Shown piece after piece: positions 504-29,988 of a stretch of 39,556 nt of DNA. Numbering within the stretch: position 1 is the first letter of the stretch; every line of letters starts with the position of its first letter. A program made the position numbers and the translations under genes. The notes under the pieces are model-generated. The model ran no database searches, was not told where the DNA came from, and was given only the letters and a program-made list of their open reading frames with translations. The stretch is from positions 1-39,556 of the forward strand of contig WFXF01000070.1 in assembly GCA_015490755.1 (NCBI GenBank). The letters run 5' to 3'. Source of the stretch: Gammaproteobacteria bacterium (GTDB lineage Bacteria; Pseudomonadota; Gammaproteobacteria; JAADGQ01).

Positions 504-983
504 ATGGGTACAGAACTGAGCCGCTTCCAGTTTTTTCGTGGGCATAGCACGCCTCCTGCTCGCCCCCCATGGGCCATTGATGAAGATGACTTTATCAAAC
601 AATGCACAGGCTGTGGTGATTGCACTCAAAGCTGCCCGCACCATTTGATCAAACCTGGCCGAGCTAGCTATCCCGTGATTGACCTGAGCTTAGGCACTTG
701 TGATTTTTGTGAAGCCTGCCTGAAAAGCTGCTCATCTGGCGCACTAGCCGCCTCTGATTCACCTTGGTTCATCAAAGCAAAAATAAGCGATAAATGCCTG
801 GTGCTCAACAAAGTCACCTGCCATACATGCAAAGACGAATGTGAACCTGAAGCCATTAAATTTTCATTGAAAACAGATGGCAACCTATCCATCAAAGTCA
901 ATCAAGATAGCTGCACAGGCTGCGGTGCATGTGCTGCTGTTTGCCCTGCCAATGCAATCACCATTCAAAACAGTCATCAATAA
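504..983 (+). CDS. napF: NapF, ferredoxin-type iron-sulfur protein of nitrate reduction
   Basis: A 159-residue protein starting at ATG 504 behind an AAAAGGA Shine-Dalgarno. It has a short N-terminal stretch ending RPPWA, typical of NapF, then clusters of [4Fe-4S] ligands: C34-x2-C37-x2-C40-x3-C44, C66-x2-C69-x2-C72-x3-C76 and C137-x2-C140-x2-C143-x3-C147, with further cysteines at 98, 106, 109 and 113. No signal peptide or membrane segment is seen, fitting a cytoplasmic protein. In characterised nap systems NapF interacts with NapA and is linked to its iron-sulfur maturation before Tat export. It is the first gene of the operon, 27 bp before napA. The Nap context and the RPPWA region favour NapF over a generic ferredoxin. 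Confidence 0.93.
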   Translation: MGTELSRFQFFRGHSTPPARPPWAIDEDDFIKQCTGCGDCTQSCPHHLIKPGRASYPVIDLSLGTCDFCEACLKSCSSGALAASDSPWFIKAKISDKCLVLNKVTCHTCKDECEPEAIKFSLKTDGNLSIKVNQDSCTGCGACAAVCPANAITIQNSHQ

Positions 984-1010
984 TTCAAGTTCATTATAAG
1001 GAAATAAAGA

Positions 1011-3500: not shown

Positions 3501-3514
3501 CCAAGGATCATGCC

Positions 3515-3952
3515 ATGAAAATTAAATTGCTGATGAAATCCATTCTCACCATGGTGTTGATACTGTTCTCCCAGTTGGCCTTTACCAATGAAGGGGGGCT
3601 TCAATCACTGAGAGGGAGCCTCCCCCTGACAGAAACGGGATTAACACCGCAAACCAGGCCCTGGAAGCAAAATAGCGGAATTGTCAATCGTGACTATGAA
3701 GCACAACCACCTGTGATCCCCCATGAAATAACGGGGTATAAAATTAATTTGCGAAGTAATAAATGCCTCACTTGCCACCGACGTGAAACCTATAAAGAGA
3801 TGGGAGCCACAATGATCAGTAAAACACATTTTGAAGATAAAAAAGGAAACGGACATGTTTCTGCCAATCGCTATTTTTGCACTCAATGTCACATCCCGCA
3901 AAGAGATATACCACCCTTGGTTAAAAATACTTTTACAGAATTTCAGGAGTAA
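3515..3952 (+). CDS. napB: NapB, periplasmic diheme cytochrome c subunit
   Basis: The start is placed at ATG 3515, after AAGGA and in front of a good signal peptide (MKIKLLMKSILTMVLILF, cleavage near residues 22-26). The same frame stays open upstream into the napA end, but that extension would bury the signal peptide. The 145-residue protein has two c-type heme motifs, C84-x2-C87-H88 and C122-x2-C125-H126, as in NapB. It receives electrons from NapC and passes them to the iron-sulfur cluster of NapA. The conserved region around RPWKQNSGIVNRDYEAQPP also fits NapB. The stop lies 3 bp before napC. Confidence 0.95.
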   Translation: MKIKLLMKSILTMVLILFSQLAFTNEGGLQSLRGSLPLTETGLTPQTRPWKQNSGIVNRDYEAQPPVIPHEITGYKINLRSNKCLTCHRRETYKEMGATMISKTHFEDKKGNGHVSANRYFCTQCHIPQRDIPPLVKNTFTEFQE

Positions 3953-3955
3953 ATT

Positions 3956-4564
3956 ATGGAAAACATTGGTAAAGAGAAAATGGATCCTAAAATGAGCTGG
4001 TTAAAAAAAATATTTTCAAAATCCAGTCAACGTTACTCTTTGGGCGCTTTAATCACTTTTGGATTTATTGCAGGTATTATTTTTTGGGGCGGATTCAATA
4101 CCGCGTTAGAAGCGAGCAACACGGAAGATTTTTGTATCAGCTGCCATGAAATGAATGACTATGTTTATACTGAGTATAAAGAGTCTGTTCACTACAGTAA
4201 CAAAACAGGAATTCGTGCCACCTGCCCTGACTGCCATGTTCCAAAAGAGTGGACTGACAAACTGGTACGCAAAGCTAAAGCAAGTTTTGAGCTTTACCAT
4301 AAAATGGTGGGCTCAATTGATACGCCTGAAAAATTTGAAGCCAAGCGAATGGAGCTAGCTCAATCTGTCTGGCAAAGAATGGAAGAGTCTGATTCTCAAG
4401 AGTGTCGTAACTGTCATGACTATCAGTCAATGGATTATAGTGAGCAAAAACGTCGCGCTCAAACCCAGCACTCTCAGGCATTTGAAGATGGAAAAACATG
4501 CATCAATTGTCATAAAGGAATTGCACACTCACTGCCTTTTGGTTTTAAAGACGGTTCAATTTAA
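3956..4564 (+). CDS. napC: NapC, membrane-anchored tetraheme cytochrome c quinol dehydrogenase
   Basis: 202 residues of the NapC/NirT/NrfH family. A single N-terminal membrane helix (about residues 28-50, LGALITFGFIAGIIFWGGF) anchors a periplasmic domain with four CxxCH motifs at C60, C90, C150 and C182. It oxidises membrane quinol and feeds NapB/NapA. With NapG and NapH absent here, NapC is the only visible quinol route. Start at ATG 3956 with CAGGAG about 7 bases upstream. The C-terminus (KGIAHSLP) is normal for the family. Its stop codon coincides with the end of an unrelated antisense RHS fragment, so foreign sequence begins immediately behind it. Confidence 0.95.
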   Translation: MENIGKEKMDPKMSWLKKIFSKSSQRYSLGALITFGFIAGIIFWGGFNTALEASNTEDFCISCHEMNDYVYTEYKESVHYSNKTGIRATCPDCHVPKEWTDKLVRKAKASFELYHKMVGSIDTPEKFEAKRMELAQSVWQRMEESDSQECRNCHDYQSMDYSEQKRRAQTQHSQAFEDGKTCINCHKGIAHSLPFGFKDGSI

Positions 4565-13047: not shown

Positions 13048-14067
13048 ATGGACATACTCGACTCTGTAGCCAAAGTTACAGAACACAAGGACAAGGATTC
13101 GTTAGAGATTAGTTTAGTCACAACTCTCGCTGAACTTTATCAGCCAACCTCCATTCGCCTGTTAAAAATCACCGACACATCAACCAACACTGAAGCATTG
13201 GTAAGCATGACATATAGTGCAACCAATAAAACAGTCAGTACCTCTACCTTGGAAATAATCCCTATTGATCAAGACTACAGCTTGCAACAATGCCTGGCTC
13301 ACACAGAGCCCGTTATTGATACTGACTACCATGACCAGTCAACCCGGGCTATCTATCCAATATTCAACAACCAGGATACAGTTATTGGTTTTATTGAAAT
13401 CATCACCTCATCATTTGATGAGACTCAAAATAAATTTGTTACCGCATTTATGAAAATATACCGTAATTACTTACGCATCATAGACGAAAGTAATCACGAC
13501 ACACTCACTGGTCTGCTCAACAGAAAAACCTTCGATTCAAACTTTCAAAAAATTCTTCTGGAAGCGCAAACAATCGAAGAAAAAAACCACAAGCGGCGCA
13601 AAATAGAGAAAAACAACCATTACTGGCTTGCTATTGTAGATATTGATCACTTCAAGCATGTAAATGATACTTATGGACACCTGTTTGGCGATGAAGTATT
13701 AATACTTTTAACCAACATCATGAGAAGTACATTTAGAAACAACGACAAGCTTTATCGTTTTGGCGGTGAAGAATTTGTTATTATTTTATCCCCTACAGAT
13801 GCCTTCGGTGCCACCTGTGCATTTGAACAATTGAGAAAAGCAGTCGAAAGCTACCAATTCCCACAAATAGAAAAAATCACTATAAGCTTGGGGTTTACCC
13901 AAATCAAACCCATGGATACACCCGCCAATGCTATTGATGAAGCCGATGCTGCGCTCTATTATGCAAAAAAACATGGGCGCAACAGAATTCATGAATATGG
14001 TCAACTGGTCAAAGCTGGAAAGCTCACCCCTACAACAATCAATACAACAGATATTGAGCTTTTTTAA
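13048..14067 (+). CDS. Diguanylate cyclase with GAF-like sensor domain (GGDEF family)
   Basis: 339 residues, no signal peptide or membrane segment, so cytoplasmic. Residues 1-150 have the length and strand/helix pattern of a GAF-like sensor; assignment is by pattern only. The cyclase domain starts at DTLTGLLNRKTFD (about 153-165) and has the active-site motif G239-G-E-E-F243, the active GGEEF variant. An inhibitory I-site RxxD (R230-N-N-D233) lies five residues before it, so product feedback is likely. The enzyme condenses two GTP to c-di-GMP. It ends exactly where the convergent hydrolase gene ends. ATG 13048 has no strong Shine-Dalgarno. It stands beside the FHA/VWA/TPR operon, on whose other side lies a PilZ gene. 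Confidence 0.93.
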   Translation: MDILDSVAKVTEHKDKDSLEISLVTTLAELYQPTSIRLLKITDTSTNTEALVSMTYSATNKTVSTSTLEIIPIDQDYSLQQCLAHTEPVIDTDYHDQSTRAIYPIFNNQDTVIGFIEIITSSFDETQNKFVTAFMKIYRNYLRIIDESNHDTLTGLLNRKTFDSNFQKILLEAQTIEEKNHKRRKIEKNNHYWLAIVDIDHFKHVNDTYGHLFGDEVLILLTNIMRSTFRNNDKLYRFGGEEFVIILSPTDAFGATCAFEQLRKAVESYQFPQIEKITISLGFTQIKPMDTPANAIDEADAALYYAKKHGRNRIHEYGQLVKAGKLTPTTINTTDIELF

Positions 14068-14972: not shown

Positions 14973-16145
14973 ATGTATACAGACTATTTCGGCTTAACAG
15001 AACCTCCTTTTTGCCTCACAACCGACCCTCGTTTCATCTATTGGAGCAAAACCCATATTAAGGCCAAATCCTACATGGATTGCGCTCTTTTAATGGGTGA
15101 TAGCTCGGTTATTGTAACTGGAGAAATTGGTTCAGGGAAAACCACTCTCGTTGACGACGCTGTTTCAGAGCTGGATTCGTCTGTTATTGTCGCTTACATT
15201 CACCAAACACGATTAAGTGAAGTTGAGTTTATACAGTCGGTTGCTGTGAAGTTTGGAATTGATGCGTTCAATAGCCAAAAAGTAGAGCTACTCGACCTCA
15301 TTAACAAATATTTAACCCACCAATATAAACAGGGAAAGCGTGTCCTGTTAATTGTTGATGAAGCGCAAAACCTCAATCAAAAAATGCTTGAGGAAGTGCG
15401 TTTATTGTCAGGACTGGAAATACACAATAAAAAAATTCTGAATATCGTTTTGGTCGGTCAACCCGAACTTAATGACACGCTTGATACTCCAGAGATGGAG
15501 CAACTGTTACAGCGTGTTCGTTTTCGCTTTCACCTCACAGCACTCAGTGAAGATGATATAGAGCCTTATATCACCCATCGACTGGAAGTTGCAGGTTTGC
15601 CAAATCAATCACTGTTTGAAGCCGATGCATACCCTATTATTCACCGTTACACGGGCGGTATACCCAGGTTAATCAACGTACTATGTGATATGGCACTCAT
15701 TAATGCATACGCAGAAGAGCTTGAAAAAGTCTCTAAAGATTTAGTTAAAATTGCAATCGCCGAGCTTAGATGGGTACCTTATAGCGAACGTAAAATACAC
15801 AAAGCGCAACCTGAATATTTACCTGATTTTGAAATACCGGAACTCCCTAAAAAACCACCCAAACTACTCCTTACAATGGAAGGAAAGTACGTTGCCGAGT
15901 ACCCGCTTGATACTCCACGGGTTCGGCTGGGGCGCAAAAAGGATAATGACATCATTATTTCAGGCCTGGAAGTCAGCCGCTATCATGCTGAAATAGTGAT
16001 GCAGGACAATCAGGCCACAATTAAAGACAATGGCAGTGCTAATGGCGTATTGGTTAATGACGAATCGATCAAAGAACAAAAACTCAATAGCGGCGATATC
16101 ATCACCATTGGCTCGCAACAATTCACATATAAAGATAATGAATAG
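14973..16145 (+). CDS. ExeA/GspA-type AAA ATPase fused to a C-terminal FHA domain
   Basis: 390 residues. The N-terminus (MYTDYFGLTEPPFCLTTDPR) is typical of ExeA/GspA/MshM-like ATPases. Walker A is G50-EIGSGKTT58 and Walker B LLIVDEAQ with D129-E130; an arginine-rich QRVRFRF segment follows. A Pro-rich linker (about 275-305) leads to an FHA domain (about 310-385) with the pThr-binding signature GR321KKDNDI, SRYHAE and DNGSANG. There is no membrane helix, unlike ExeA, which carries one plus a peptidoglycan-binding domain. So this ATPase looks cytoplasmic, with FHA in place of the envelope part. It is first in a five-gene operon; its end overlaps the next gene by 8 bp. The partner is not known; the FHA domain implies a phosphothreonine ligand. 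No Ser/Thr kinase gene is in the window. Confidence 0.88.
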   Translation: MYTDYFGLTEPPFCLTTDPRFIYWSKTHIKAKSYMDCALLMGDSSVIVTGEIGSGKTTLVDDAVSELDSSVIVAYIHQTRLSEVEFIQSVAVKFGIDAFNSQKVELLDLINKYLTHQYKQGKRVLLIVDEAQNLNQKMLEEVRLLSGLEIHNKKILNIVLVGQPELNDTLDTPEMEQLLQRVRFRFHLTALSEDDIEPYITHRLEVAGLPNQSLFEADAYPIIHRYTGGIPRLINVLCDMALINAYAEELEKVSKDLVKIAIAELRWVPYSERKIHKAQPEYLPDFEIPELPKKPPKLLLTMEGKYVAEYPLDTPRVRLGRKKDNDIIISGLEVSRYHAEIVMQDNQATIKDNGSANGVLVNDESIKEQKLNSGDIITIGSQQFTYKDNE

Positions 16146-17688
16146 AGACAACATCACACCCTACCTGTACATATTGTTATCCGCCCTTTTTATTTTAGGA
16201 TCAGCAAATATTCAAGCTCAGTCTGAAACGAAACATGAAGTTGTTCTCGTAATGAGTAATTCGCAAAGCATATTGGTGAGTGACCCCGACAAACTGGCTC
16301 GCGTTGCAGCCCTTGAGTTTATTGAATCTCTTGATAATAACGTAAAGTTTGGACTGATTTATTTTGATGGCAATGCCACTATCGCCTCACCACTCACAAC
16401 ACTGGGTGAATCACGAAAAACTGTACTGACTCACATTGGTCAACTCGAAGCAGGCACAAAACAATCAAACAGCCCTGAAGCGATGCAAAAAGCATTTGAA
16501 ATGCTGAGCAACAGCGATGATACAAACCCAGCAACTCAAAAGAGTATTATTTTTCTGAGCGACCAGCCAGTGAATACAGGTGACACAACTCAAGACCAGG
16601 AAAAACAGCGGTGGCTAACAAATAACTTTTCATCTGCCGCAGCACAAAAAGGTATTAAAATTTTTGCCATCTCACTGACAAGCAGTGCGGATCAAACGCT
16701 ATCAGAAACCTTGGCTTCAAATACAAATGGCCAATTTTATATGGCAAACAACCCACAGGAACTACTCGGTATTTTCAGAAAGGTCAGCACACAAATAACA
16801 GGGCAAACCATCTCTATTTCACCTACCCAGGGAATTTCAATCAATACATTAACAGAGTACGATGCAAGCCTCAGCCCTATCCCGGAAGAAGAGTCTGCTG
16901 TTCAAGAAATTAATCAAGAAAGCATCCATGAACAAAATATACTCCCATCATGGAGTATTGCTCTCGTTATTGGGCTCCTTATTGCAGGTCTATTATTTCT
17001 CACTCGTTTCAAGGAGAGTGACAACCCTGATAGTTCATCAATAGATGTACGCCCCATGCCACCTGTCACACCATCAATACCCGAAGCTTACCTGGAAGAT
17101 ATTCATCACATAACGCTGCGCAAACATTTAGCTCTCGGTTCATCAGCCACTATTTTAGGGCGTGTTGCTGGAAACCGCTTATCAGAATTTCACTATATTG
17201 AAATTGACCAGCAAACGATCAGCCGTGAACATGCAATCATTGAGTACCGTGATGACGCGTTTTACATTAATGATAAAAATAGTACCAATGGGACTTTTGT
17301 TAATGACCAGAAAGTGAGCCAATGGCAACGCCTGAACCACCTGGATAAAGTACGTCTGGACAAGTATGAGTTTATATTCACTATTCCTTCAATGCAGGTT
17401 GATGCTGATGACAGTAAATATGCATCACCTGAAGCACTGCTGGAGGATGCCACAATCATTAACACTCAACCACCAATAAAAAAACCAGCCTCAACATCAA
17501 ATCCACAACAGCAACAAAAACATGCACCTCTGCAAGAAGATGACGAAGATGCACCAACAGTCTTTATGGCGATGCCCAAAAAGAGAACGTCACCACCTAC
17601 TGACACCCACAAAGAAGAAGAGAGTATTGATAACGACCAAACTATTTTTTTGAAAAAAACACCCAATCAAAATCATGAAGAAAAATAA
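16138..17688 (+). CDS. Membrane protein with periplasmic VWA domain, cytoplasmic FHA domain and Thr-motif tail
   Basis: 516 residues from ATG 16138, which overlaps the previous stop; longer in-frame starts would hide the signal peptide (YLYILLSALFILGSANIQAQ). Order: signal peptide (1-25), VWA-like domain (about 31-215), linker, membrane helix (272-292, WSIALVIGLLIAGLLFLTRF), then FHA (about 335-400; GR342, SREHA, NSTNGTFVND). The C-terminal tail is acidic/Pro/Gln-rich with three similar motifs around T439 (EDATII), T474 (DAPTVF) and T502 (NDQTIF). In the VWA metal site, DxSxS reads S-N-S-Q-S, so the first Asp is Ser, while the later SDQP Asp is kept; metal binding is doubtful. Topology puts VWA outside and FHA inside. 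The tail motifs could be phosphothreonine sites for an FHA domain. It overlaps the next gene by 14 bp. Confidence 0.85.
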   Translation: MNRDNITPYLYILLSALFILGSANIQAQSETKHEVVLVMSNSQSILVSDPDKLARVAALEFIESLDNNVKFGLIYFDGNATIASPLTTLGESRKTVLTHIGQLEAGTKQSNSPEAMQKAFEMLSNSDDTNPATQKSIIFLSDQPVNTGDTTQDQEKQRWLTNNFSSAAAQKGIKIFAISLTSSADQTLSETLASNTNGQFYMANNPQELLGIFRKVSTQITGQTISISPTQGISINTLTEYDASLSPIPEEESAVQEINQESIHEQNILPSWSIALVIGLLIAGLLFLTRFKESDNPDSSSIDVRPMPPVTPSIPEAYLEDIHHITLRKHLALGSSATILGRVAGNRLSEFHYIEIDQQTISREHAIIEYRDDAFYINDKNSTNGTFVNDQKVSQWQRLNHLDKVRLDKYEFIFTIPSMQVDADDSKYASPEALLEDATIINTQPPIKKPASTSNPQQQQKHAPLQEDDEDAPTVFMAMPKKRTSPPTDTHKEEESIDNDQTIFLKKTPNQNHEEK

Positions 17689-18238
17689 AAACCATAAGCT
17701 AACTGGATTTACTCCACTTTTTCTTGTTTCATTTTTTTTGATCGTGATGCCATCCATCACCACAGCAGAAAATAGTCATTCATCCAAAGTGCTCGACTCT
17801 GAAATTCAAACGCTAAAAAATGAAGTATTAAAGCTCAACCGGGATCTCTTTATTTTAGAGGAGGAGCTACTTTTTCCAATCAGCACCCAAATAACTGTTT
17901 TTGTATCGCTCGATATTGGCGAGTTTTTTTCACTTGACAGTGTGCAACTAAAAATTGATGGCACACAAATTGCCAACTACCTTTATACAGAGCGCGAGGT
18001 CGATGCACTCAAGCGTGGCGGTGTACACCAGCTATACATAGGAAATATTCGTCAAGGCTCACATGAGCTCTCCGCTTTTTTTACCGGAAAGGGTCCCCAT
18101 GAGCGCGACTATTCACGAGCCGCCACTATATCTATAAATAAAACAGACGAACCCAAATACGTTGAACTAAAAATAGTTGACCTCACGATGAAGCAACAAC
18201 CCACATTTGACATAAAAGTATGGGAACCTGAAATTTAA
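17675..18238 (+). CDS. Small exported protein with coiled coil and beta-rich domain, function unknown
   Basis: 187 residues, not recognised as a named family. A signal peptide (FTPLFLVSFFLIVMPSITTA, cleavage near residue 31) is followed by a short heptad-like helix (LDSEIQTLKNEVLKLNRDLF) and then an apparently beta-rich region with PEGA/Ig-like features: SVQLKIDGTQIANYLYTERE, GGVHQLYIGNIRQGSHELSA, and alternating hydrophobic strands. It is probably periplasmic. It starts 14 bp inside the VWA-FHA gene and ends 1 bp before the TPR gene, so it is made together with them. It is a likely structural partner for the TPR proteins or the VWA domain. No catalytic residues are evident. Confidence 0.8.
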   Translation: MKKNKNHKLTGFTPLFLVSFFLIVMPSITTAENSHSSKVLDSEIQTLKNEVLKLNRDLFILEEELLFPISTQITVFVSLDIGEFFSLDSVQLKIDGTQIANYLYTEREVDALKRGGVHQLYIGNIRQGSHELSAFFTGKGPHERDYSRAATISINKTDEPKYVELKIVDLTMKQQPTFDIKVWEPEI

Positions 18239-18239
18239 A

Positions 18240-20108
18240 ATGCGTATGCGGCTGTTTTTTTCTGCTCTGTTTTTTATTTCAATGAGCAGCGGTGCCATTG
18301 GTGACGATACCTCTCAAAATCAAAGCATTGGATATATTAAAGCGCCTCATTACGGTGAGACATTGCTGCACTTTTATCAGCAAAACTATTACACCGCGAT
18401 TACCCACCTGCTTGCCGCACAAAAACAACAACGTCTGAAACATCACAAACATGATGCCGAGCTACTGCTAGGCAGCCTCTACCTTGCTTATGGAATGCAC
18501 AATCAGGCCAGCATGATCTTCGAAAATTTATCTAATGATCAGACCTCCATAAGAACCCGGAACCAGGCCTGGTTCTATTTAGCAAAAATTTACCACCAAC
18601 GAGGTTATTCTCAAAAAGCCCAAAACGCATTAACAAAAATAGAGGGTTCATTAGAAAGTAATGCACTACAACAACAACGGTTACTGTTAGAAGCATCAAT
18701 ACTCATGGCTAATCAAGATTATGAAAAAGCTTCGACCGTATTAAAAGCAATGCAACCCGACTCCATAACAGGTGCTTTTGGTCGCTATAATTTAGGTGTT
18801 GCACTGATTAAAAGTGAGCAGTTCCAACAAGGTATTGATGCACTGACCAGTGTCGGCAACATGAAAGCTGATAACGAAGAGTTTAATGCACTTCGTGACC
18901 GAGCCAACCTCACACTAGGATTTACCTACCTGGAGCAATACAAAGGGCATCAGGCACAATCACACTTCGAACGCATACAACTTGACGGCCCATATGCCAG
19001 TCAGGCTCTTTTAGGGTTAGGCTGGACTCATTCAACACTCAGTCAATACCACCAGGCACTCGTATACTGGCAAGAGCTCCAGCAACGCAATAAACTGGAT
19101 GATGCAGTACAAGAGTCACTGCTTGCCGCCCCTTATGCACTGGATCAACTCTTTGCACATAAACAGGCGCTCCAGCAATACCAAAATGCTGTTGAAATTT
19201 ATAAAACCCAACTGCAACGTATTCAATACTTTATTGAAACTATTCCAGGCAGTCAGTTTACAGATGATTTATTAGGTACATCCACTCAAAGTGAAACCGG
19301 CTGGTTCTGGCAATTACAGCACCTGACTAACATCACTGAAAACTACTATCTCCAGGAACTTTTTTCACAAAACAACTTTCAGGAGTTACTTAAAAACTAT
19401 CGTGATCTACTCTTCATGAAAGCAAAGCTACAACAGAAGCAGGCAGACCTGACACTCTATTACGACATGCTTAATGTACGCCGCAACAAATTAAGGCAGC
19501 ATAGCGCAGATATAGAGAAACAGACTAACAACACCCATTTAAACTCTTTCAATGCCCGAAACGATGCACTCACCAGCCATCTTTCGCTGATTGAAAAAAA
19601 CCCCACCCCTCGATCACTAGCCAGCTCCCAGGAGATCGAGCAGCTCGATAGAAGTGAACGTATCAAAAAGCGCATTGAACAGCTACCAGCCCACCCCCGT
19701 ATTGATCACTACCAAGATCGCCTAAGATTACTCAAAGGGCTAGTTTTATGGAATATCAACAGCCAGTTTGATAAACGTCTACAGCAAAAGCGGCAATCCC
19801 TCAAAGCAATTAATAAAAGTATAGAAGAGTACGGCCAGCACCAAAAAAGTATCAAGCAAAAACAGCACGATGCCTCTCAAACAATCCTGTCTCACCAGAA
19901 ACAAATTACAGAGCTTCAAGCACGCACCCATGAGCTAAAACGCAACATAGATAAGCTGCTGAATAAGCAATCTCATGACATTGAACAGATGGCAATCACG
20001 GTATTACAAGAGAAAAGTGAAAGGATCGCTGATTATCTTGCCCAGGCCAGCATTGCAATCGCTCAGATTTATGATCGTGCGGATGAAGAGAGTGGTGGCA
20101 AACAGTGA
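18240..20108 (+). CDS. Exported TPR and coiled-coil protein
   Basis: 622 residues. A signal peptide (MRMRLFFSALFFISMSSGA) precedes an N-terminal half of TPR-like helix pairs. Recognisable units include DAELLLGSLYLAYGMHNQAS, QAWFYLAKIYHQRGYSQKAQ, ALLGLGWTHSTLSQYHQALV, spread over about residues 30-300. The C-terminal half (about 390-610) is rich in Gln, Lys, Glu and Leu with heptad patterns, giving extended coiled coil. There is no later membrane helix, so a periplasmic scaffold is the likely role. It starts 1 bp after the previous gene and overlaps the next start as GTGA. The specific family is not recognised. The arrangement is loosely reminiscent of TPR proteins in trans-envelope motility or secretion scaffolds. 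Confidence 0.82.
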   Translation: MRMRLFFSALFFISMSSGAIGDDTSQNQSIGYIKAPHYGETLLHFYQQNYYTAITHLLAAQKQQRLKHHKHDAELLLGSLYLAYGMHNQASMIFENLSNDQTSIRTRNQAWFYLAKIYHQRGYSQKAQNALTKIEGSLESNALQQQRLLLEASILMANQDYEKASTVLKAMQPDSITGAFGRYNLGVALIKSEQFQQGIDALTSVGNMKADNEEFNALRDRANLTLGFTYLEQYKGHQAQSHFERIQLDGPYASQALLGLGWTHSTLSQYHQALVYWQELQQRNKLDDAVQESLLAAPYALDQLFAHKQALQQYQNAVEIYKTQLQRIQYFIETIPGSQFTDDLLGTSTQSETGWFWQLQHLTNITENYYLQELFSQNNFQELLKNYRDLLFMKAKLQQKQADLTLYYDMLNVRRNKLRQHSADIEKQTNNTHLNSFNARNDALTSHLSLIEKNPTPRSLASSQEIEQLDRSERIKKRIEQLPAHPRIDHYQDRLRLLKGLVLWNINSQFDKRLQQKRQSLKAINKSIEEYGQHQKSIKQKQHDASQTILSHQKQITELQARTHELKRNIDKLLNKQSHDIEQMAITVLQEKSERIADYLAQASIAIAQIYDRADEESGGKQ

Positions 20109-22996
20109 TAAATCGGCTATTTATTGTTCTTTGCACCCTACTATTAAGCAGCGGCTGCACTATATTGAATTCAAAACCATCTGAAGTGACAACGATTAAA
20201 TCAATTAAAGACAATGTCATTACAATTGAACAAAAACCCATTGCAGATGCAAATTACAATAAAACAATATCGGCCTATAAAACGGTCATGGCACGCACAG
20301 AAAAAGGCAGTCCGTATTACATTGAGGCTTTGCGCCGCCTTGCAGACATAGAGATGGAACGCGCGGATGATCTAATTACTTCATTAAATAGTGCCAACTT
20401 GAAAAGTGAAGAAACGATCTACAAACAAGTCATCGCACATTATGAAGAACTGCTACAAACCTACCCGGACATGCCTGCAAAAGATCGAGTACTGTATCAG
20501 CTCGCCAAAGCCTATGAACATAACGGACAACTGGATAACACACTGAAAACATTTGATATTTTAATCAAAGACTATCCCGACTCGCCCTATCTTGGTAAAA
20601 AAGCAGGAGTACCTGAACTCTCGTTTGGTAGAGAACAAAAGAGAAAGACCACCTCTAAATACTTGGGTGAGGTACAGTTTCGTCGCGGTGAAATCAATTT
20701 CACCCGTCAATCATATGCTGCAGCCGAAACTGCATACGCTGCCGTTGCTCGCCTGGGAGACAAAACCAAATTTTATGAACGAGCCATATACAAACACGGC
20801 TGGTCACTTTATAAACAGGGAAAATATTCAACAGCACTCAACTCGCTCTTTACTCTATTAGATATCAAATTTAATGCAAAAAATGCATCATGGAAACAGA
20901 CCAAAGATTTACAAAGCAGTGAAAAAGAGTTCAGAAATGATACGTTACGCGTTCTTTCACTCTCATTGAGCAATATGGATGGTGCATACTCCCTATCAGA
21001 ATTTTTCACACAAAACAAACGTAATTATGAGCCTATAATTTACGACTATCTGGGGCAGTTTTATTTAGAGCGGGGGCACATAGATGAAGCCACAGATACT
21101 TTTTTAACTTTCATAGAGCAACACCCCGAACATGCGCAAGCACCCTTTTTCTACCTAAGAGCGATCTTTGCCTATAATCAGGCAAACCAGATACAACGCG
21201 CACTAAATGCAAAACAGGAATTTATCAAACGCTTTGGTGTTAAAAGCAAATACTGGGCTTCAATCACCCCGGTATTACGAAAAAAACTAACACCTTACCT
21301 GGTGAGCACGATGAGTGACCTGGCACACCATTATCATGCCCAATATCAAAAAGATACCACTCAAAACTCTGTCTCCTACACAAAAGCAGTTAATTGGTAT
21401 CACCAACTACTAACAACCTTTCCCAAAAGCATTGATGCGCCCAATATCAATTTCATGCTTGCAGAAATTTTATTCGAAAACAGATCCTATAAAGAAGCTG
21501 CCATTGAATACGAAAAAACAGCATATGACTACCCAAAACATAAACAGTCCAACAAAGCTGCTTATGCTGCCCTCACAGCATACAAACAACTACTCAAACA
21601 ACCCAACATAAGCAATTACACTGAGTTTGAACAGCAAATGATAGACAGCTCCTTACGTTTCACAAAAGCTTTTCCGAATGACTCAAGAACTCCAGCCGTT
21701 CTGGTCAATTCAGCACAAAAACTTTTCGAGCAAAAAAATAACAAGAGAGCAACCATTATTGCAAAACGCATCCTGGCTCTTGACAAACAGAGTATCGATA
21801 CAAAAATAGAACGAACAGCTTGGGCAATCATAGCGCATACTAATTTTGAGCAGCAAAACTATATAGAAGCAGAAGAAGCTTATAAAAACACCCTGAAACT
21901 CACCCCATTCATGCATCCTGATCGTAACTCATGGCAAGAGAAGTTAGCGGCATCTATTTATAAGCAGGGTGAATTGCTACAGAATAGAGGCGAAACTGAA
22001 TCTGCTGTAGAAAGCTATTTACGTGTAAAAAAGGAAGCACCTGGTTCAGCAATTGCTGCTGTTGCCACCTACGATGCTGCTGCTCTGCTTATTACCATGC
22101 AGCGCTGGGGCCAAGCCAGCAATGTACTGGAATATTTTATAACCGAATTCCCAAGGCACAAATTACAACCCAACGCATTAGCTCGCCTATCTGAAACCTA
22201 TATCAAAAACAGACAGCCTACAAAAGCGGCCGGAATCTACGAAACTTTATCAACAAAAGAGCAAAATCCCGATATTCGACGTGAAGCGGCCTGGAAAGCT
22301 GCGGAGCTCTATGACAAAGGTCAAAAACCGTTACAAGCAATCAATGCCTATAAACGCTATATCACGTTTCACCCTTTTCCAGTTCCACAGGCGATGGAAG
22401 CACGTCACCGCCTGTCGTTACTTTACCAACAACAGGGGGATTACAAAAAGCAGCAATACTGGTTAGAAGATATTGTGAATACCGAAAGAGGCACAGCCAG
22501 CTTCAATAAAACTGATCGAGTACGATACATTACGGCAAAAGCTTCTCTAGCACTCGCAAGACCGCAAGGTGTTCTCTATCATAAAATTAAATTAGTAAAA
22601 CCATTCAAGAAAAACTTAAAACAAAAAAAGAAAAAAATGACAGCCGCACTTAATGCCTACAAACAGGCAATCACTTATAACGTCGCAGATATTGTAACAG
22701 AATCAACCTACCGGATTGCTGAAATTTATAATGAATTTGCTCATGCATTAATGACTTCTGAACGCCCTTCAAATTTAAGCCCTGAAGAGCTTGAGCAATA
22801 CGAAATTTTATTAGAAGAGGAGGCGTACCCATTCGAAGAAAAAGCCATTGACGCACATACAATTAATGCGAAACGAACCCAGTCAAAAATATACGACCAA
22901 TGGGTTAAGAGAAGTATCAAAAAGCTCAGTAAATTATCACCCGCCCGTTATAACAAGCAAGAGAAGGGGGAGTCATATATTTCAAGTCTGGAATAG
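20105..22996 (+). CDS. Large TPR-repeat lipoprotein
   Basis: 963 residues. The start is GTG 20105, overlapping the upstream TGA (GTGA), which implies translational coupling. The lipobox LSSGC places the lipidated cysteine at C18, and the residue after it is Thr, compatible with outer-membrane sorting. The rest is almost entirely TPR-like helix pairs, for example YQLAKAYEHNGQLDNTLKTF, NFMLAEILFENRSYKEAAIE, ARLSETYIKNRQPTKAAGIY, with several repeats ending in YP or FP as in CpoB/YbgF and GltE-like proteins. A basic Lys-rich segment (KKNLKQKKKK, about residue 835) lies near the C-terminus. It is probably an outer-membrane-anchored periplasmic scaffold. It is the last gene of the operon and is followed by a hairpin. 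Confidence 0.87.
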   Translation: MINRLFIVLCTLLLSSGCTILNSKPSEVTTIKSIKDNVITIEQKPIADANYNKTISAYKTVMARTEKGSPYYIEALRRLADIEMERADDLITSLNSANLKSEETIYKQVIAHYEELLQTYPDMPAKDRVLYQLAKAYEHNGQLDNTLKTFDILIKDYPDSPYLGKKAGVPELSFGREQKRKTTSKYLGEVQFRRGEINFTRQSYAAAETAYAAVARLGDKTKFYERAIYKHGWSLYKQGKYSTALNSLFTLLDIKFNAKNASWKQTKDLQSSEKEFRNDTLRVLSLSLSNMDGAYSLSEFFTQNKRNYEPIIYDYLGQFYLERGHIDEATDTFLTFIEQHPEHAQAPFFYLRAIFAYNQANQIQRALNAKQEFIKRFGVKSKYWASITPVLRKKLTPYLVSTMSDLAHHYHAQYQKDTTQNSVSYTKAVNWYHQLLTTFPKSIDAPNINFMLAEILFENRSYKEAAIEYEKTAYDYPKHKQSNKAAYAALTAYKQLLKQPNISNYTEFEQQMIDSSLRFTKAFPNDSRTPAVLVNSAQKLFEQKNNKRATIIAKRILALDKQSIDTKIERTAWAIIAHTNFEQQNYIEAEEAYKNTLKLTPFMHPDRNSWQEKLAASIYKQGELLQNRGETESAVESYLRVKKEAPGSAIAAVATYDAAALLITMQRWGQASNVLEYFITEFPRHKLQPNALARLSETYIKNRQPTKAAGIYETLSTKEQNPDIRREAAWKAAELYDKGQKPLQAINAYKRYITFHPFPVPQAMEARHRLSLLYQQQGDYKKQQYWLEDIVNTERGTASFNKTDRVRYITAKASLALARPQGVLYHKIKLVKPFKKNLKQKKKKMTAALNAYKQAITYNVADIVTESTYRIAEIYNEFAHALMTSERPSNLSPEELEQYEILLEEEAYPFEEKAIDAHTINAKRTQSKIYDQWVKRSIKKLSKLSPARYNKQEKGESYISSLE

Positions 22997-23060: not shown

Positions 23061-23372
23061 CTAATCATTATAAAGCATCGGACGCAAAGAGCGGATGGTA
23101 CTTACTTCAAAGTTTTTGAATGCCATACCAACACCATCATCAGTAACATACGTTACCACAGCACCAACATTGTGTGTTTTTTCACGATCACCTTCTGGTA
23201 AATTAAACATCAAATTCACTGCTGTGTTCACTTTAAGCAGTGAATTTCTAACCTTACAAAACATCCCTCCCAAACCAACGTCTTTTACCGAACCTTCAAT
23301 CACACCTAATGCCGGGTGATCAAGTTTGACGTTAAAATCAACACTCTTACGAGCGCTCCACCGATGATCCAT
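23061..23372 (-). CDS. PilZ-domain protein (c-di-GMP receptor)
   Basis: 103 residues from ATG 23372, chosen because GAGGAGG lies just upstream; the in-frame start at 23396 lacks this. It is a stand-alone PilZ domain. The c-di-GMP motifs are R4-W-S-A-R8 (RxxxR) and D31-V-G-L-G-G36, a common variant of DxSxxG. The remaining sequence forms the expected beta barrel (FNVKL, GSVKDV, VNLMFNLPEG, VGAVVTYVTDDGVGMAF). The protein is cytoplasmic and presumably transmits c-di-GMP levels to a partner. It is convergent with the five-gene FHA/VWA/TPR operon, which also has a diguanylate cyclase gene on its far side. The target is unknown. Confidence 0.9.
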   Translation of the reverse strand: MDHRWSARKSVDFNVKLDHPALGVIEGSVKDVGLGGMFCKVRNSLLKVNTAVNLMFNLPEGDREKTHNVGAVVTYVTDDGVGMAFKNFEVSTIRSLRPMLYND

Positions 23373-23396
23373 AATTACCTCCTCAGAACACATCAC

Positions 23397-25134: not shown

Positions 25135-26049
25135 TTATCTACCTTCTTCTTCCATACGTTTCAAACGATTTTCTGCCAAACGTGCAGCACTACTTGCCGG
25201 AAACTGGCTAACCAGACTTTCTAGTGAAGAGCGCGCTTGTGACCACTCATCAAGCTCATAATGTGCGTAACCAATCTTTAGCAAGGCACCAGGCACTTTA
25301 TGACTCGTGCTGTAATCACTCACAACCTTACCAAACTCATTCACAGCCTGACTAAAACGACGCGTGACATAGTTCGCCTCACCCAGCCAGTATTGAGCGT
25401 TATCAGCATATTCAGTATCCGGGTGGTTCTTTAAAAAGTTTTGGAAAGCATTGATAGCCTCATCGTACTGTCCATTTTTCAGAAGAGAGTAAGCCTCAGA
25501 ATAATCTAATGCAGGGTCACTAGAAGAGGTGAAACCTTGAGAAGGCGGCTCAGCGACCTCTGAAACAGCATCCGCTGCAGTCACTAATATTGCTCCAGGT
25601 ATCATCTCATCACTTTCCGGGGTGGCTGATAGCAACAAGTTTTCATCAGGTGTTATTGGCAGGTCACTATTTTTTGGTTCAAGAGCATCAGATGCGGTTT
25701 CCAATGCCTCCAGACGTTGATCAAGATCAAGGTACAATGCTCGCTGCCTACGCTCCATATCTTCCTGTTTATGCGTTTGTAACTCTACATCACCCTGAAG
25801 TTGTTGCAGCTGATTTTCCAGCTCATCCAGGCGTAAAGACAAATTCATTATTACCTGATTTTCCATCAAACGTTCCAACTTAATCAAACGTGATTCAATC
25901 AGACTGTTCCGCTTCTCCTGAATCGATGTTGCTTCCACAACAGGAGCCAACGCTTCACCACTCACAGAAGCAGCAGATACAGTTAATAGTAGAGCTACAA
26001 TACCTGTGTTGTAAGGAAAACACAGGCATCGTACCAGGAAGTTCTTCAT
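25135..26049 (-). CDS. cpoB: CpoB (YbgF), Tol-associated periplasmic division coordinator
   Basis: 304 residues. A signal peptide (GIVALLLTVSAASVSGEA) is followed by an N-terminal coiled coil (about 40-115), which trimerises the family, a Pro/Glu/Ser-rich linker, and three TPR units at the C-terminus (about 180-300; LDYSEAYSLLKNGQYDEAIN, AQYWLGEANYVTRRFSQAVN, ALLKIGYAHYELDEWSQARS). In E. coli, CpoB links TolA activity to PBP1B during septal growth. Its ATG overlaps the pal stop by one base (TAATG), so the two are translationally coupled. Confidence 0.95.
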   Translation of the reverse strand: MKNFLVRCLCFPYNTGIVALLLTVSAASVSGEALAPVVEATSIQEKRNSLIESRLIKLERLMENQVIMNLSLRLDELENQLQQLQGDVELQTHKQEDMERRQRALYLDLDQRLEALETASDALEPKNSDLPITPDENLLLSATPESDEMIPGAILVTAADAVSEVAEPPSQGFTSSSDPALDYSEAYSLLKNGQYDEAINAFQNFLKNHPDTEYADNAQYWLGEANYVTRRFSQAVNEFGKVVSDYSTSHKVPGALLKIGYAHYELDEWSQARSSLESLVSQFPASSAARLAENRLKRMEEEGR

Positions 26050-26612
26050 TAGCGCCCTTGATACCGTAGTTCTACACGACGATTCTGTGCCCAGGAGTCG
26101 CTATCACTCCCCATAACAGCAGGGCGCTCTTCACCGTAACTTACAACTTCCAGCTGCCCAGCGGAAACACCTTGCATTAACATTGCATTTTTCACTGAGT
26201 TTGCACGACGCTCACCCAATGCCATATTGTATTCCCGAGTACCACGCTCATCAGCATGACCTTCCAGCACCAAAAATGCATTAGGGTTATCGATAAGATA
26301 AGTTGCATGAGCACTTATAACCGATTGGAACTCATCCCTTATATTACTGGAATCATATTCAAAATAGATCACCCGAATAGCTAGAACGCTGTCAGGATCA
26401 TCTAAAGCATCACCACTATAAACTTCAGTTGTACCCGAAAAAGTAGGAGGATCAACCGGTATTGTTGTGATGGATGGAGTCACAGGCTGCTCAATGACAG
26501 CAGGTGCAGGAACCTCTTCAATAGGTGCGTCCACCACCTCTCCAGTAGAGCTACAACCCATTAATATAAGTGCAGGAGCAGCCAGCCCTAATAATTTTGA
26601 ATATGATTTCAT
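26049..26612 (-). CDS. pal: Pal, peptidoglycan-associated outer-membrane lipoprotein
   Basis: 187 residues from ATG 26612, chosen because AGGAG/AAAGG precedes it and the lipoprotein signal then starts properly; the frame runs to 26636. The lipobox gives lipidated C20 (ILMGC). A Pro-rich spacer precedes the OmpA-like peptidoglycan-binding domain (about 80-187), with IYFEYDSSNIRDEF, LEGHADERGTREYNMALGER and NRRVELRY near the end. Pal tethers the outer membrane to peptidoglycan and cycles between TolB and the wall. Confidence 0.97.
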   Translation of the reverse strand: MKSYSKLLGLAAPALILMGCSSTGEVVDAPIEEVPAPAVIEQPVTPSITTIPVDPPTFSGTTEVYSGDALDDPDSVLAIRVIYFEYDSSNIRDEFQSVISAHATYLIDNPNAFLVLEGHADERGTREYNMALGERRANSVKNAMLMQGVSAGQLEVVSYGEERPAVMGSDSDSWAQNRRVELRYQGR

Positions 26613-26647
26613 TACCTTTTCTCCTAGGTTCAACATATTTTTATGTA

Positions 26648-27961
26648 TTAATTTAATTTAAATGTAGACCACGCGGGTTCACGCACATCCCCTGCTTGTG
26701 ACAACCGCTGCCGAACATGCCCATCTACAGAAACAATAGCCAATACACTCTTGCCTCTATTTTTTGTTGCGTAAATAATCATACTACCGTTCGGTGAAAA
26801 ACTGGGCGACTCATCCAATCCTCCCTCGGATAATAGACGAACTCCGCCTCTCTCCAAATCTTTCACCGCTATATAATACTTGTCTCGCTCCCGATGCACC
26901 ATAGCTAATAATTTGCCATCAGCAGAAAAAGTCGCACGAGAGTTATAATCACCCTCAAATGTCAACCGTTTTGGCCGCCCTCCTGCAACAGGAATCTGAT
27001 AAAGCTGTGCGCCACCACTACGCGATGAAGTAAACACAATACTTTCACCATCGGGAGACCATACAGGCTCGGTATCAATAGCACGGTTATGTGTCAATCG
27101 GCGCAGTTTATCACGAGCAAGATCATACACATAAATTTCCGGATTACCATCACGCGAAAAAACCACGGCCAACTGTTTACCATCCGGTGACCAGGATGGC
27201 GCACCATTCAATCCTTTAAATGATTGCAGGCGTTTACGCTCTCCAGTCAATAACTCTTGAATATATATGACAGGCCGCTCTGTTTCAAAAGAGACATAAG
27301 CCAGACGCTGACCATCAGGTGACCATGAAGGTGACATAACAGGCCACTTTGAAGTCAAAACAGCACGCGGATTTTCACCGTCAGAGTCTGCAACAAAAAG
27401 TGAATAACGCCGCTTACCATCTGCTGCCAGTACGGAGGTCACATAAGCTATTTGTGTCGCGAATGCACCAGGTTTTCCCGTTAACTCTTTATAGATAATG
27501 TCACTGATTTGGTGCGCAGCATAGCGCAGTTCATTTTCCCGCAACACTTTACCTCTGGCAGGAATTGTATAACCCAGCAAACGCTTACCGCTATAAACAT
27601 CCAAAAGATGAAATTGAACGACATAACCATTTTTTACTTTGCGTATATTACCCACCACCAGACCTTCTGCCTGTAACATGCGCCACTCTTTAAAACGCAC
27701 CATTGATGCCGTTGTCGGGCGTGAAAGAAAATCTTTTTCAGGCAAAGGCTTAAAACGCCCGCTGCGATGTAAGTTCGCAGCAATAATACCTGCAAAATCT
27801 ACAGGAGCACTCTCCATTCCTTCTACCCCAAAAGGAACAACGGCAATCGGCATGGCACTGGAGATACCTTGTGTAATCTCAATTTTTAGTACCGCATGCG
27901 CTTGTGAAGAGATCAAGAGGTACAAACATACACTTAGCAAACGCACAGTAATTATTCTCAT
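26648..27961 (-). CDS. tolB: TolB, periplasmic beta-propeller protein
   Basis: 437 residues from ATG 27961, which gives a clean signal peptide (MRIITVRLLSVCLYLLISSQ, AHA cleavage site). A GTG at 27988 overlaps the tolA stop as GTGA and is a possible alternative. The N-terminal domain (about 25-165) is followed by a six-bladed propeller with repeated SPSWSPDG-type motifs (SPSWSPDGQRLAYVS, APSWSPDGKQLAVVF, EPVWSPDGESIVFTS). TolB binds Pal and is recovered by TolA. It lies between tolA and pal in the standard order. Confidence 0.97.
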   Translation of the reverse strand: MRIITVRLLSVCLYLLISSQAHAVLKIEITQGISSAMPIAVVPFGVEGMESAPVDFAGIIAANLHRSGRFKPLPEKDFLSRPTTASMVRFKEWRMLQAEGLVVGNIRKVKNGYVVQFHLLDVYSGKRLLGYTIPARGKVLRENELRYAAHQISDIIYKELTGKPGAFATQIAYVTSVLAADGKRRYSLFVADSDGENPRAVLTSKWPVMSPSWSPDGQRLAYVSFETERPVIYIQELLTGERKRLQSFKGLNGAPSWSPDGKQLAVVFSRDGNPEIYVYDLARDKLRRLTHNRAIDTEPVWSPDGESIVFTSSRSGGAQLYQIPVAGGRPKRLTFEGDYNSRATFSADGKLLAMVHRERDKYYIAVKDLERGGVRLLSEGGLDESPSFSPNGSMIIYATKNRGKSVLAIVSVDGHVRQRLSQAGDVREPAWSTFKLN

Positions 27962-27984
27962 AAGTAGATCCAGTTCAATTGAAA

Positions 27985-28851
27985 TCACTCCCTTGGTTTA
28001 AAAGTAAATTCCAGGTTTCTATCAAACAATGCCGGATCCGGTGGCACTGGCAGTGGTGAAGCCCTTAATACTGCTGCTTCAATTGAACGATGTACAACTA
28101 AATCACCATTGCAAATATCCACTCGCGCACTAATCACCTCACCTCCTGGAATCTGTTTGACTTTCACTGTGCATGACAAACCAGGCTTTGCGCTGGGCGG
28201 TCTACGCCAATAACGCTCAACATGCTGGGCAATCATATTTATATATTCACCTCGCAATGACTGTAAACGACGCTGCTCAGCCACACGTTGCCGCTGCAAC
28301 TCAGCCTCACGTTTTATTTTCTCCTCTTCGGCTTTACGTTTTGCTTCAGCTTCAATGGCTTCTTTCTCTTTTTTACGTTTAGCTTCTTCTGCAAGCCGTC
28401 TCTTTTCTGCCTCTTTTTTCTTTTCCTGTTCAATCCGTTTTTTCTCTTCAGCGGCTCTTTTAGCTTCAAGAGCCTCTTTCTGTTTTTTCTCTGCTTCCTC
28501 TCTCTTTTTTACTTCAGCAAGACGCTTCGCTTCAGCCTGGCGCCTTTTCTCTTCTTGCTGTTTTTTTTCTAGTTCCGCCAGACGTTTTTCTTCAGCCAAT
28601 AAAGCCTGTCGCTCCAATTCAGCTTGACGCTCTTTCTCTTCAATCTGCTTACGTCTCTCTTCTTCATGCAATTTTGCCATTTCAGCTTGCAATTGACCAT
28701 CATCAATCACAACCGCTTTTACAATTTCGACAGGCTGTTGTGAAAATCGTTGCTGAGGCTCAAGCTCCCAATCATAACTAAAAAGCACAAGCGCTAATAG
28801 TGCACCATGAATCAAAGCCGACAGCAAAAAAGAGGGCAAACTTTTAAACAT
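27985..28851 (-). CDS. tolA: TolA, inner-membrane protein spanning the periplasm
   Basis: 288 residues. One N-terminal membrane helix (about 8-27, FLLSALIHGALLALVLFSYD) includes SALIHG, matching the SHxxH-like TolA/TonB helix that contacts TolQR. A long Lys/Glu/Ala/Arg-rich single helix covers about 45-195. A C-terminal domain (about 196-288; LRGEYINMIAQHVERYWRRP, C-terminal strands) binds Pal/TolB. The repeated codons of the helix make the opposite strand open in two frames; those are shadows. It starts directly after the tolR stop with no gap. It is shorter than E. coli TolA (about 420), mainly in the helix. Confidence 0.95.
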   Translation of the reverse strand: MFKSLPSFLLSALIHGALLALVLFSYDWELEPQQRFSQQPVEIVKAVVIDDGQLQAEMAKLHEEERRKQIEEKERQAELERQALLAEEKRLAELEKKQQEEKRRQAEAKRLAEVKKREEAEKKQKEALEAKRAAEEKKRIEQEKKKEAEKRRLAEEAKRKKEKEAIEAEAKRKAEEEKIKREAELQRQRVAEQRRLQSLRGEYINMIAQHVERYWRRPPSAKPGLSCTVKVKQIPGGEVISARVDICNGDLVVHRSIEAAVLRASPLPVPPDPALFDRNLEFTFKPRE

Positions 28852-29280
28852 TTAATTCTTTTCAGGCGTTGAAGTAATCAAGCCAACACTAGGTGCTCCC
28901 GCCTGTTGCAACAGAACCATCGCTCGTACCACCGAACCATAATCAACATTCGCATCACCCCGCACATAAACAGGAGTACCAGGCTGAAGACGTAATATTG
29001 TAGATGTTCGCTGCATGACAGTATCGGAATCAATTGCTTGTTTTGGGTCACCGCCAACATTCATATAATAATCACCATTAGAATCAATAGTGAGCTCCAA
29101 TGGCTCTTTTTCATTTGAGTCGACAGATTCTGCATTGGCTTGTGGCAAATCGACCTTCACTCCCTGAGTCATCAGCGGAGCTGTCACCATAAAAATAATC
29201 AGCAATACCAACATAACATCAATGTATGGTACGACATTGATCTCGCTTATTGGGCGTTTTCTGACACGTCCATTAACCAT
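28852..29280 (-). CDS. tolR: TolR, ExbD-family stator subunit of the Tol motor
   Basis: 142 residues from ATG 29280, which has AGGTG six bases upstream; a GTG at 29289 is an alternative. A short basic N-terminus (GRVRKRPISEINVVPYID) leads into one membrane helix (about 21-40) with the essential proton-carrying aspartate at D21. The periplasmic domain follows. With TolQ it converts proton motive force into movement of TolA. It lies 27 bp after tolQ and abuts tolA. Confidence 0.96.
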   Translation of the reverse strand: MVNGRVRKRPISEINVVPYIDVMLVLLIIFMVTAPLMTQGVKVDLPQANAESVDSNEKEPLELTIDSNGDYYMNVGGDPKQAIDSDTVMQRTSTILRLQPGTPVYVRGDANVDYGSVVRAMVLLQQAGAPSVGLITSTPEKN

Positions 29281-29307
29281 TGAGTTCACCTGCTCCTAAT
29301 CTATGCT

Positions 29308-29988
29308 TTAACTTGGTGAATGTACTTTACGCTGTAAAATCGTATAAAACTCATCTGAAAAATTGTCAAAACGACCTACCAAACGCTCAACGTCAGCAGA
29401 ATATCTATTATAAGCAATAACGGCTGGAATCGCGGCAAACAAGCCCATTGCAGTTGCAATCAATGCTTCAGATATTCCGGGTGCCACCATTGCGATTGTG
29501 GCTTGCTGCACCTCACTCAGACCACGAAAAGAGTTCATAATGCCCCAGACTGTTCCAAACAGACCGATATATGGACTGATCGAACCCACCGTTGCCAAAA
29601 ATGACAAATTCTCTTCCAGTGAATCTACTTCACGATTCAATGCAACACGCATGGCTCGATGTGGCCCTTCCAGCTGAGCGGCAGGTTCGACACCCGTACG
29701 TTTACGCATTCGTGCAAACTCAGTAAAGCCGGCCATAAAAATACTCTCCATACCCGAAGCATTATGCCGCTCTGCATGAACCTGTGAATAAAGATTAGAC
29801 AGATCCTTACCTGACCAGAAACGATCTTCAAAATCATCCGCGGCATTCGCTGCCTTTTTAAGCATCGACCATTTACGAAAAATCATAGTCCATGATATGA
29901 GTGATGCCAGCAATAAGGTTACCATCACCAACTGCACTAACAGACTGGCTTCGGTAATCAAATGAACCAGGGATAGATCAACATTCAT
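29308..29988 (-). CDS. tolQ: TolQ, MotA/ExbB-family proton channel
   Basis: 226 residues with three membrane helices: about 15-37 (ASLLVQLVMVTLLLASLISW), about 135-160 (LATVGSISPYIGLFGTVWGI) and about 170-192 (IATAMGLFAAIPAVIAYNRY). The conserved small-residue and Thr/Gly motifs of the ExbB/TolQ channel are seen in the second and third. It overlaps ybgC by 11 bp and precedes tolR. It forms the pentameric channel around the TolR dimer. Confidence 0.97.
   Translation of the reverse strand: MNVDLSLVHLITEASLLVQLVMVTLLLASLISWTMIFRKWSMLKKAANAADDFEDRFWSGKDLSNLYSQVHAERHNASGMESIFMAGFTEFARMRKRTGVEPAAQLEGPHRAMRVALNREVDSLEENLSFLATVGSISPYIGLFGTVWGIMNSFRGLSEVQQATIAMVAPGISEALIATAMGLFAAIPAVIAYNRYSADVERLVGRFDNFSDEFYTILQRKVHSPS

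Follow-up and report, generated by a model that had tools for sequence, protein, structure and literature searches.

A g3-g4-g5 block without local motor genes, related to the Agl/Glt core complex, in a gammaproteobacterial genome

To what kind of machine do five closely packed genes of a gammaproteobacterium belong, if their predicted products reach from the cytoplasm to the outer membrane, and what would drive it? The stretch of DNA analysed here, called the window, is the whole of contig WFXF01000070.1 (C70, 39.6 kb) of assembly GCA_015490755.1, a genome of 2.63 Mb that is 99.7% complete. The genes are named g1 to g5 in their order on the contig.

14973..16145, + strand: g1, cytoplasmic ExeA/XrtA-type AAA ATPase with a C-terminal FHA domain
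16138..17688, + strand: g2, export signal, periplasmic VWA domain, single transmembrane (TM) segment and cytoplasmic FHA domain (topology from hydrophobicity and domain order)
17675..18238, + strand: g3, small exported protein, the strongly conserved marker of the block
18240..20108, + strand: g4, exported TPR solenoid with a C-terminal helix of about 110 residues, candidate GltC-position protein
20105..22996, + strand: g5, 963-aa TPR lipoprotein, candidate GltD-position protein and the most conserved large component

The junctions comprise overlaps of 8, 14 and 4 bp and a gap of 1 bp, exactly as given in the original prediction, which was made by a model from the letters alone and whose domain calls for the five proteins also agreed with profile searches. 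An in-frame ATG lies upstream of g2 at 16030; with 16138 as the start, the protein begins with its hydrophobic export signal. The window genome and a second species of its genus share each of the five proteins at 72-88% identity. Because the whole block recurs in that species with purifying selection on all five genes (pN/pS 0.16-0.29 between the two), it is not a chance arrangement. The locus nevertheless consists of two modules, g1-g2 and g3-g4-g5 (17675-22996): the five-gene system that had been proposed exists in the two species of this genus, whereas elsewhere g3-g4-g5 travel without g1-g2.

A search of relatives with g4 found g3-g4-g5 together in many gammaproteobacteria. The g3 profile was present in 90 of 370 sampled gammaproteobacterial species (24%) and in 14 of 398 genomes of a phylum-wide draw, all 14 from Gammaproteobacteria, in a draw whose make-up is not fully listed; g3 was also met in named genomes of Burkholderiales and Ectothiorhodospiraceae. 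Identity to members outside the genus was 29-43% for g5 and reached 65% in the core of g3. Over 131 loci the usual order was g3-g4-g5-gltE-small-aglR-aglQ-aglS-gltG, in which the genes after g5 encode a TPR lipoprotein, an exported protein of about 100 aa, a MotA/TolQ/ExbB protein, two ExbD proteins and a protein with a TonB/AgmX tail. The g5 tree and the alignments argue for shared descent, and on these grounds the g3-g5 genes of the window are homologous to those of the motor-bearing operons.

By gene order and content the g3-g4-g5 block matches the Agl/Glt core complex, which in gammaproteobacteria was described as GltC, GltD, GltE, GltG and AglRQS together with one extra gene that is absent from Myxococcales (Luciano et al. 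2011, PMC3169522). The locus had been called undescribed, which was too strong in view of that report of 2011; its likening to a Glt-like assembly extending from the cytoplasm to the outer membrane was right in direction. Candidates for the extra gene are g3 and the small gene. What the locus has in common with the core is envelope TPR proteins at candidate GltC and GltD positions, to which its relatives add an AglRQS-type motor and GltE-like and GltG-like proteins, but it ends after g5 without gltE, the small gene, aglRQS and gltG, and it has g1-g2 in addition. Since the motor, GltE and GltG features of the complete core are missing, the window locus is best filed, from its gene content, as a derived relative of the Agl/Glt core and not as a member. 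The core was judged unlikely to drive motility by itself (PMC3169522), and gliding is not implied for the window machine.

Domain search gave no family match for g3. Its AlphaFold model (pLDDT 86) consists of one long helix (34-66) and a transthyretin/Ig-like beta sandwich (72-183), and a fold search of the PDB turned up no relative by sequence, its matches (best Z 9.5) being of a generic Ig/transthyretin-like kind. The g4 protein is TPR-like but under the Pfam cut-offs; its model (pLDDT 86) is a TPR solenoid ending in the long helix, and generic TPR proteins alone were found in the PDB. The labels coiled-coil/beta for g3 and TPR/coiled-coil for g4 were thus correct according to the models. 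The g5 protein matched TPR (1e-19) and has a lipobox-like SSGC near residue 18, with no Asp at +2.

AglRQS-type proton motor genes are absent from the 39.6-kb window. Among the class-sample loci in which over 8 kb of sequence follows g3, 83 in number, g5 was found in 79, aglR in 62 and gltG in 62. Of the 21 that do not run on into aglR, 17 retain g5, as does the window. A profile of the AglR type (A4), whose scores set this type more than 150 bits apart from ordinary TolQ/ExbB, detected an AglR-type gene elsewhere in every one of the 18 genomes whose g3-g4-g5 locus is motorless, the best score in each lying at 345-375 bits, compared with none of 30 g3-negative control genomes (best 127 bits). 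In a few motorless genomes, for example G122, G194, G368 and G186, the second motor loci are known by position and score only. The co-occurrence with MotA/TolQ-TolR paralogues that the original prediction had proposed to look for was therefore found, and its statement that no motor genes are adjacent held locally for the AglRQS type but not genome-wide, as the block normally runs into aglRQS-gltG and a motor is present at C41.

In the genome of the window the AglR-type gene, the sole strong one found, lies at C41:15266-15907 inside a full motor cluster (L042). This cluster encodes a MotA_ExbB protein, two ExbD proteins, a TPR lipoprotein of the GltE type and a GltG-type protein with an AgmX/PglI (GltG/GltJ) C-terminal domain (1e-16; GltG-model match 4e-11). 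Its g4 (L042:8676-9659) is short, 328 aa, without the helix/coiled-coil region, and it has no g3, so that it is complementary to the window copy. In the g5 tree the window grouped with two other motorless copies of its family (support 99), and the motor-bearing copies of the family formed a separate group (support 99). This separation indicates that the duplication is older than the family. Motor status changed about 8 times on the tree by parsimony, at least 3 of the changes being forced by well-supported branches, and the motorless state thus arose repeatedly. G058 is a natural split of scaffold and motor: it has a single g3 locus, which is motorless (C5), while at C7 (L266:7729-10357) an aglR-aglQ-aglS-gltG operon stands alone, with no TPR genes.

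A known system of this kind is Nfs of Myxococcus xanthus, which is without a motor of its own and relies on AglRQS in trans (Wartel et al. 2013, PMC3858216). The window copy and Nfs resemble each other as Glt paralogues without motor genes of their own, and the finding of a scaffold that lacks a motor in genomes that hold a matching motor at another site (18 of 18 genomes against 0 of 30, and the split in G058) is as in Nfs, which is driven by AglRQS encoded elsewhere. They differ in that Nfs comprises NfsA-H, of which NfsG touches AglR, whereas the window has a VWA-TM-FHA protein and none of the GltG/NfsG type; no role in a spore coat is implied.

Many loci (L026, L033, L056, L161 and others) carry an outer-membrane module upstream of g3, consisting of an HZS-alpha-like lipoprotein of about 900 aa, an SH3-barrel protein, a barrel protein and a DUF3570 protein. 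In the genome of the window the lipoprotein, the outer-membrane protein and the DUF3570 protein were found once, unlinked, at C16:34483-40404. DUF3570 proteins are substrates of ApbE flavinylation (PMC8238504), and their presence in the module is a hint of a redox link for the Glt-like core. In G002 a pair of apbE-like and dtd-like genes (L024:10418-12034) stands directly upstream of the motorless g3-g4-g5.

The other module is g1-g2. The g1 protein matched AAA_22 (6e-25) and FHA (4e-18), and its Walker A (GEIGSGKT, residue 50) and Walker B (VLLIVDE, residue 124) motifs are both intact. Against TIGR03015, the model of XrtA-type ExeA ATPases, it scored 9e-86 and 287.6 bits, under the family cut-off of 324.5, and no exopolysaccharide (EPS) genes were seen among the window proteins scanned; membership of the XrtA/PEP-CTERM-associated ATPases was rejected. 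In g2 one hydrophobic segment (268-286) separates the VWA (7e-13) from the FHA domain (5e-15). Both species of the genus have lost the Asp of the VWA metal ion-dependent adhesion site (MIDAS), with SNSQS where most homologues keep DNSGS, so the domain may have a structural role.

Both FHA domains keep the phosphothreonine-binding residues (LGRKK..SRYH..ANG in g1, LGRVA..SREH..TNGT in g2), and they are the only two found in the whole genome. Three Ser/Thr kinase (Pkinase) matches were above the cut-off, one of them adjoining a gene at C42 that is PP2C-like as its sequence is read. Judged by these residues and by the kinases in the genome, the two domains are candidate phosphothreonine readers, and the signalling input suggested earlier is plausible. 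At C42 (L262:872-4481) an apbE-like/dtd-like pair adjoins the PP2C-like phosphatase and the kinase. Open reading frames (ORFs) fusing a PP2C-like N-terminus to a Ser/Thr kinase domain were seen at L260:7059-8780 and L261:6818-8545, one of them next to an MFS-type transporter gene.

FHA-bearing ORFs occurred in just 2 of the 131 g3-type loci, those of the window and the sister species, and a single conserved five-gene operon was rejected on this count. Full-length g1 homologues elsewhere (about 48% identity) have varied neighbours or lie in XrtA-type polysaccharide/EPS loci; g2 homologues also have varied neighbours, such as birA/coaX-like and parAB-like genes. The distribution of the FHA ORFs and these varied contexts indicate that g1-g2 are recent recruits to g3-g4-g5 in this genus only. 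Nor are g1 and g2 a stable pair elsewhere, since the g2-like neighbourhoods that were fetched hold no g1 homologue. A literature search on ExeA-FHA-VWA operons found none, which is not proof of absence.

GltG of Myxococcus crosses the membrane once; its FHA domain lies in the cytosol, and its TonB-like end, in the periplasm, touches AglR (PMC3169522). No FHA domain was detectable in the GltG-like proteins of the sampled loci. By analogy g2 would restore the FHA-TM-periplasmic-domain layout of GltG through another architecture, which is suggestive. In the ArnA-ArnB system of Sulfolobus (PMC6509490) an FHA protein and a vWA protein likewise make up a switch that depends on phosphorylation and bears on a motility structure; that system is archaeal and acts on archaellum gene expression, whereas the VWA domain in the window is predicted to be periplasmic and is fused across the membrane to FHA. 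TM-anchored vWA force transducers (PMC12204202) share with g2 a periplasmic VWA domain anchored in the inner membrane, and they occur with TPR genes and TolQ-type motors, but g2 has the order VWA-TM-FHA, lacks the SHLS motif in its N-terminal segment and does not adjoin an AglR-type gene. That the locus is not a type II or type VI secretion system, as had been stated, was supported: neither a secretin nor type VI secretion genes were found among the window proteins scanned, and the TagH model of type VI systems gave 46 bits against a cut-off of 120.

Two further features flank the cluster.

13048..14067, + strand: GGDEF diguanylate cyclase, upstream context gene, found in the second species of the genus too
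25135..29988, - strand: Tol-Pal operon (tolQ, tolR, tolA, tolB, pal, cpoB), complete, a convergent neighbour in this genus only

A PilZ gene at 23061-23396, downstream of the cluster, is missing in the second species; together with the GGDEF gene it gives a possible cyclic di-GMP context. At 504-4564 a row of genes encodes a 4Fe-4S protein, a molybdopterin oxidoreductase and a NapC/NirT-type cytochrome. No RNA family or tRNA was found in the window, and promoter and terminator scans were not used, promoter-like sites being no more numerous than in shuffles.

How might these parts work together? The reading that we favour, with moderate confidence, is an Nfs-like relative of the Glt core with its motor in trans, in which phospho-dependent FHA control was recruited in one genus. 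The g3, g4 and g5 proteins would form the scaffold, in periplasm and outer membrane, of an Agl/Glt-type core machine that has lost its local motor genes, to which a cytoplasmic/inner-membrane pair, the g1 ATPase-FHA and g2 VWA-TM-FHA proteins, would have been added. The proton-driven AglRQS-type motor of C41 would act on this scaffold in trans, as AglRQS acts on Nfs in Myxococcus, and such coupling is likely. The g2 protein would replace GltG as the bridge between cytoplasm and periplasm, and g4 and g5, with their TPRs, long helix and lipid anchor, would transmit force or position as far as the outer membrane, with the C16 module as a possible recipient. A Ser/Thr kinase/phosphatase pair, such as that of C42, may control, through the two FHA domains, the timing with which g1 and g2 join the machine or put it together; gating of this kind is plausible. 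We infer the physical coupling, the phospho-control and the force transfer alike. A more far-reaching version is put forward tentatively: the FHA/ATPase and VWA-TM-FHA proteins would be a clutch that replaced GltG and the local motor, the kinase would gate a shared AglRQS-type motor on a second scaffold, and gammaproteobacteria would repeatedly have evolved alternative scaffolds for one shared envelope motor.

Several points weigh against the favoured reading. The link of the window proteins to the C41 motor, physical or genetic, is one that we infer. C41 carries its own g4 and g5 copies, and therefore its motor may serve those alone. The FHA pair is linked to g3-g5 in two species only, so their functional tie depends on presumed co-transcription. 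Only 4 of 24 members of the g4 family matched the GltC model, none better than 3e-4, and other TPR models gave higher scores; there was no match to a GltD model, and no direct link by sequence to GltC or GltD emerged.

The same distribution of genes could be read as one dispersed machine, in which a single complex with two g4/g5 pairs would unite the scaffold of the window, the motor cluster of C41 and the outer-membrane module of C16. That g3 (C70), a strong AglR-type gene (C41) and the outer-membrane module (C16) were each found once is consistent with it, as are the short g4 and missing g3 of C41 and the like case of G363, whose motorless locus has g3 and whose motor locus does not. In families f63, f77 and f74, however, a g3 gene is also present at the locus with the motor, so that two complete machines are usual there, and we regard a single complex as rather doubtful. 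A scaffold independent of any motor, which would serve as a static envelope tether or an assembly factor under phospho- and ATPase regulation and draw its energy from g1, is improbable: the missing local motor link, the new ATPase gained in the operon and the loss of the MIDAS Asp from g2 would suit it, but motorless loci are confined to genomes still holding an AglR-type motor (18 of 18), and g1 homologues stand in many unrelated contexts. Still less probable is that the cluster works with Tol-Pal, with TolQR as its motor. The tolQ and tolR genes, which the original prediction did not mention, lie about 6 kb from the cluster, the operon adjoins the cluster in convergent orientation in each of the two species, and TPR_6-type repeats are common to cpoB and g5. 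Against this, the Tol genes are of the ordinary kind and run on the other strand, TolQ of the window scored 52 bits on the AglR-type measure, compared with at least 195 for the AglR type, and G002, a third family member, has the same motorless block away from Tol-Pal; the case for a partnership is weak.

Since 2011 the Glt-like core of gammaproteobacteria has counted as a complex whose function is not known. In these bacteria its scaffold and motor have come apart repeatedly, with a matching motor always elsewhere, which makes 'one motor, several scaffolds' a testable general rule and not a peculiarity of Myxococcus. Genomes like G058, with one scaffold and one motor apart, and the genus described here, with the FHA pair on one scaffold only, are natural experiments both on the role of the complex and on its switching.

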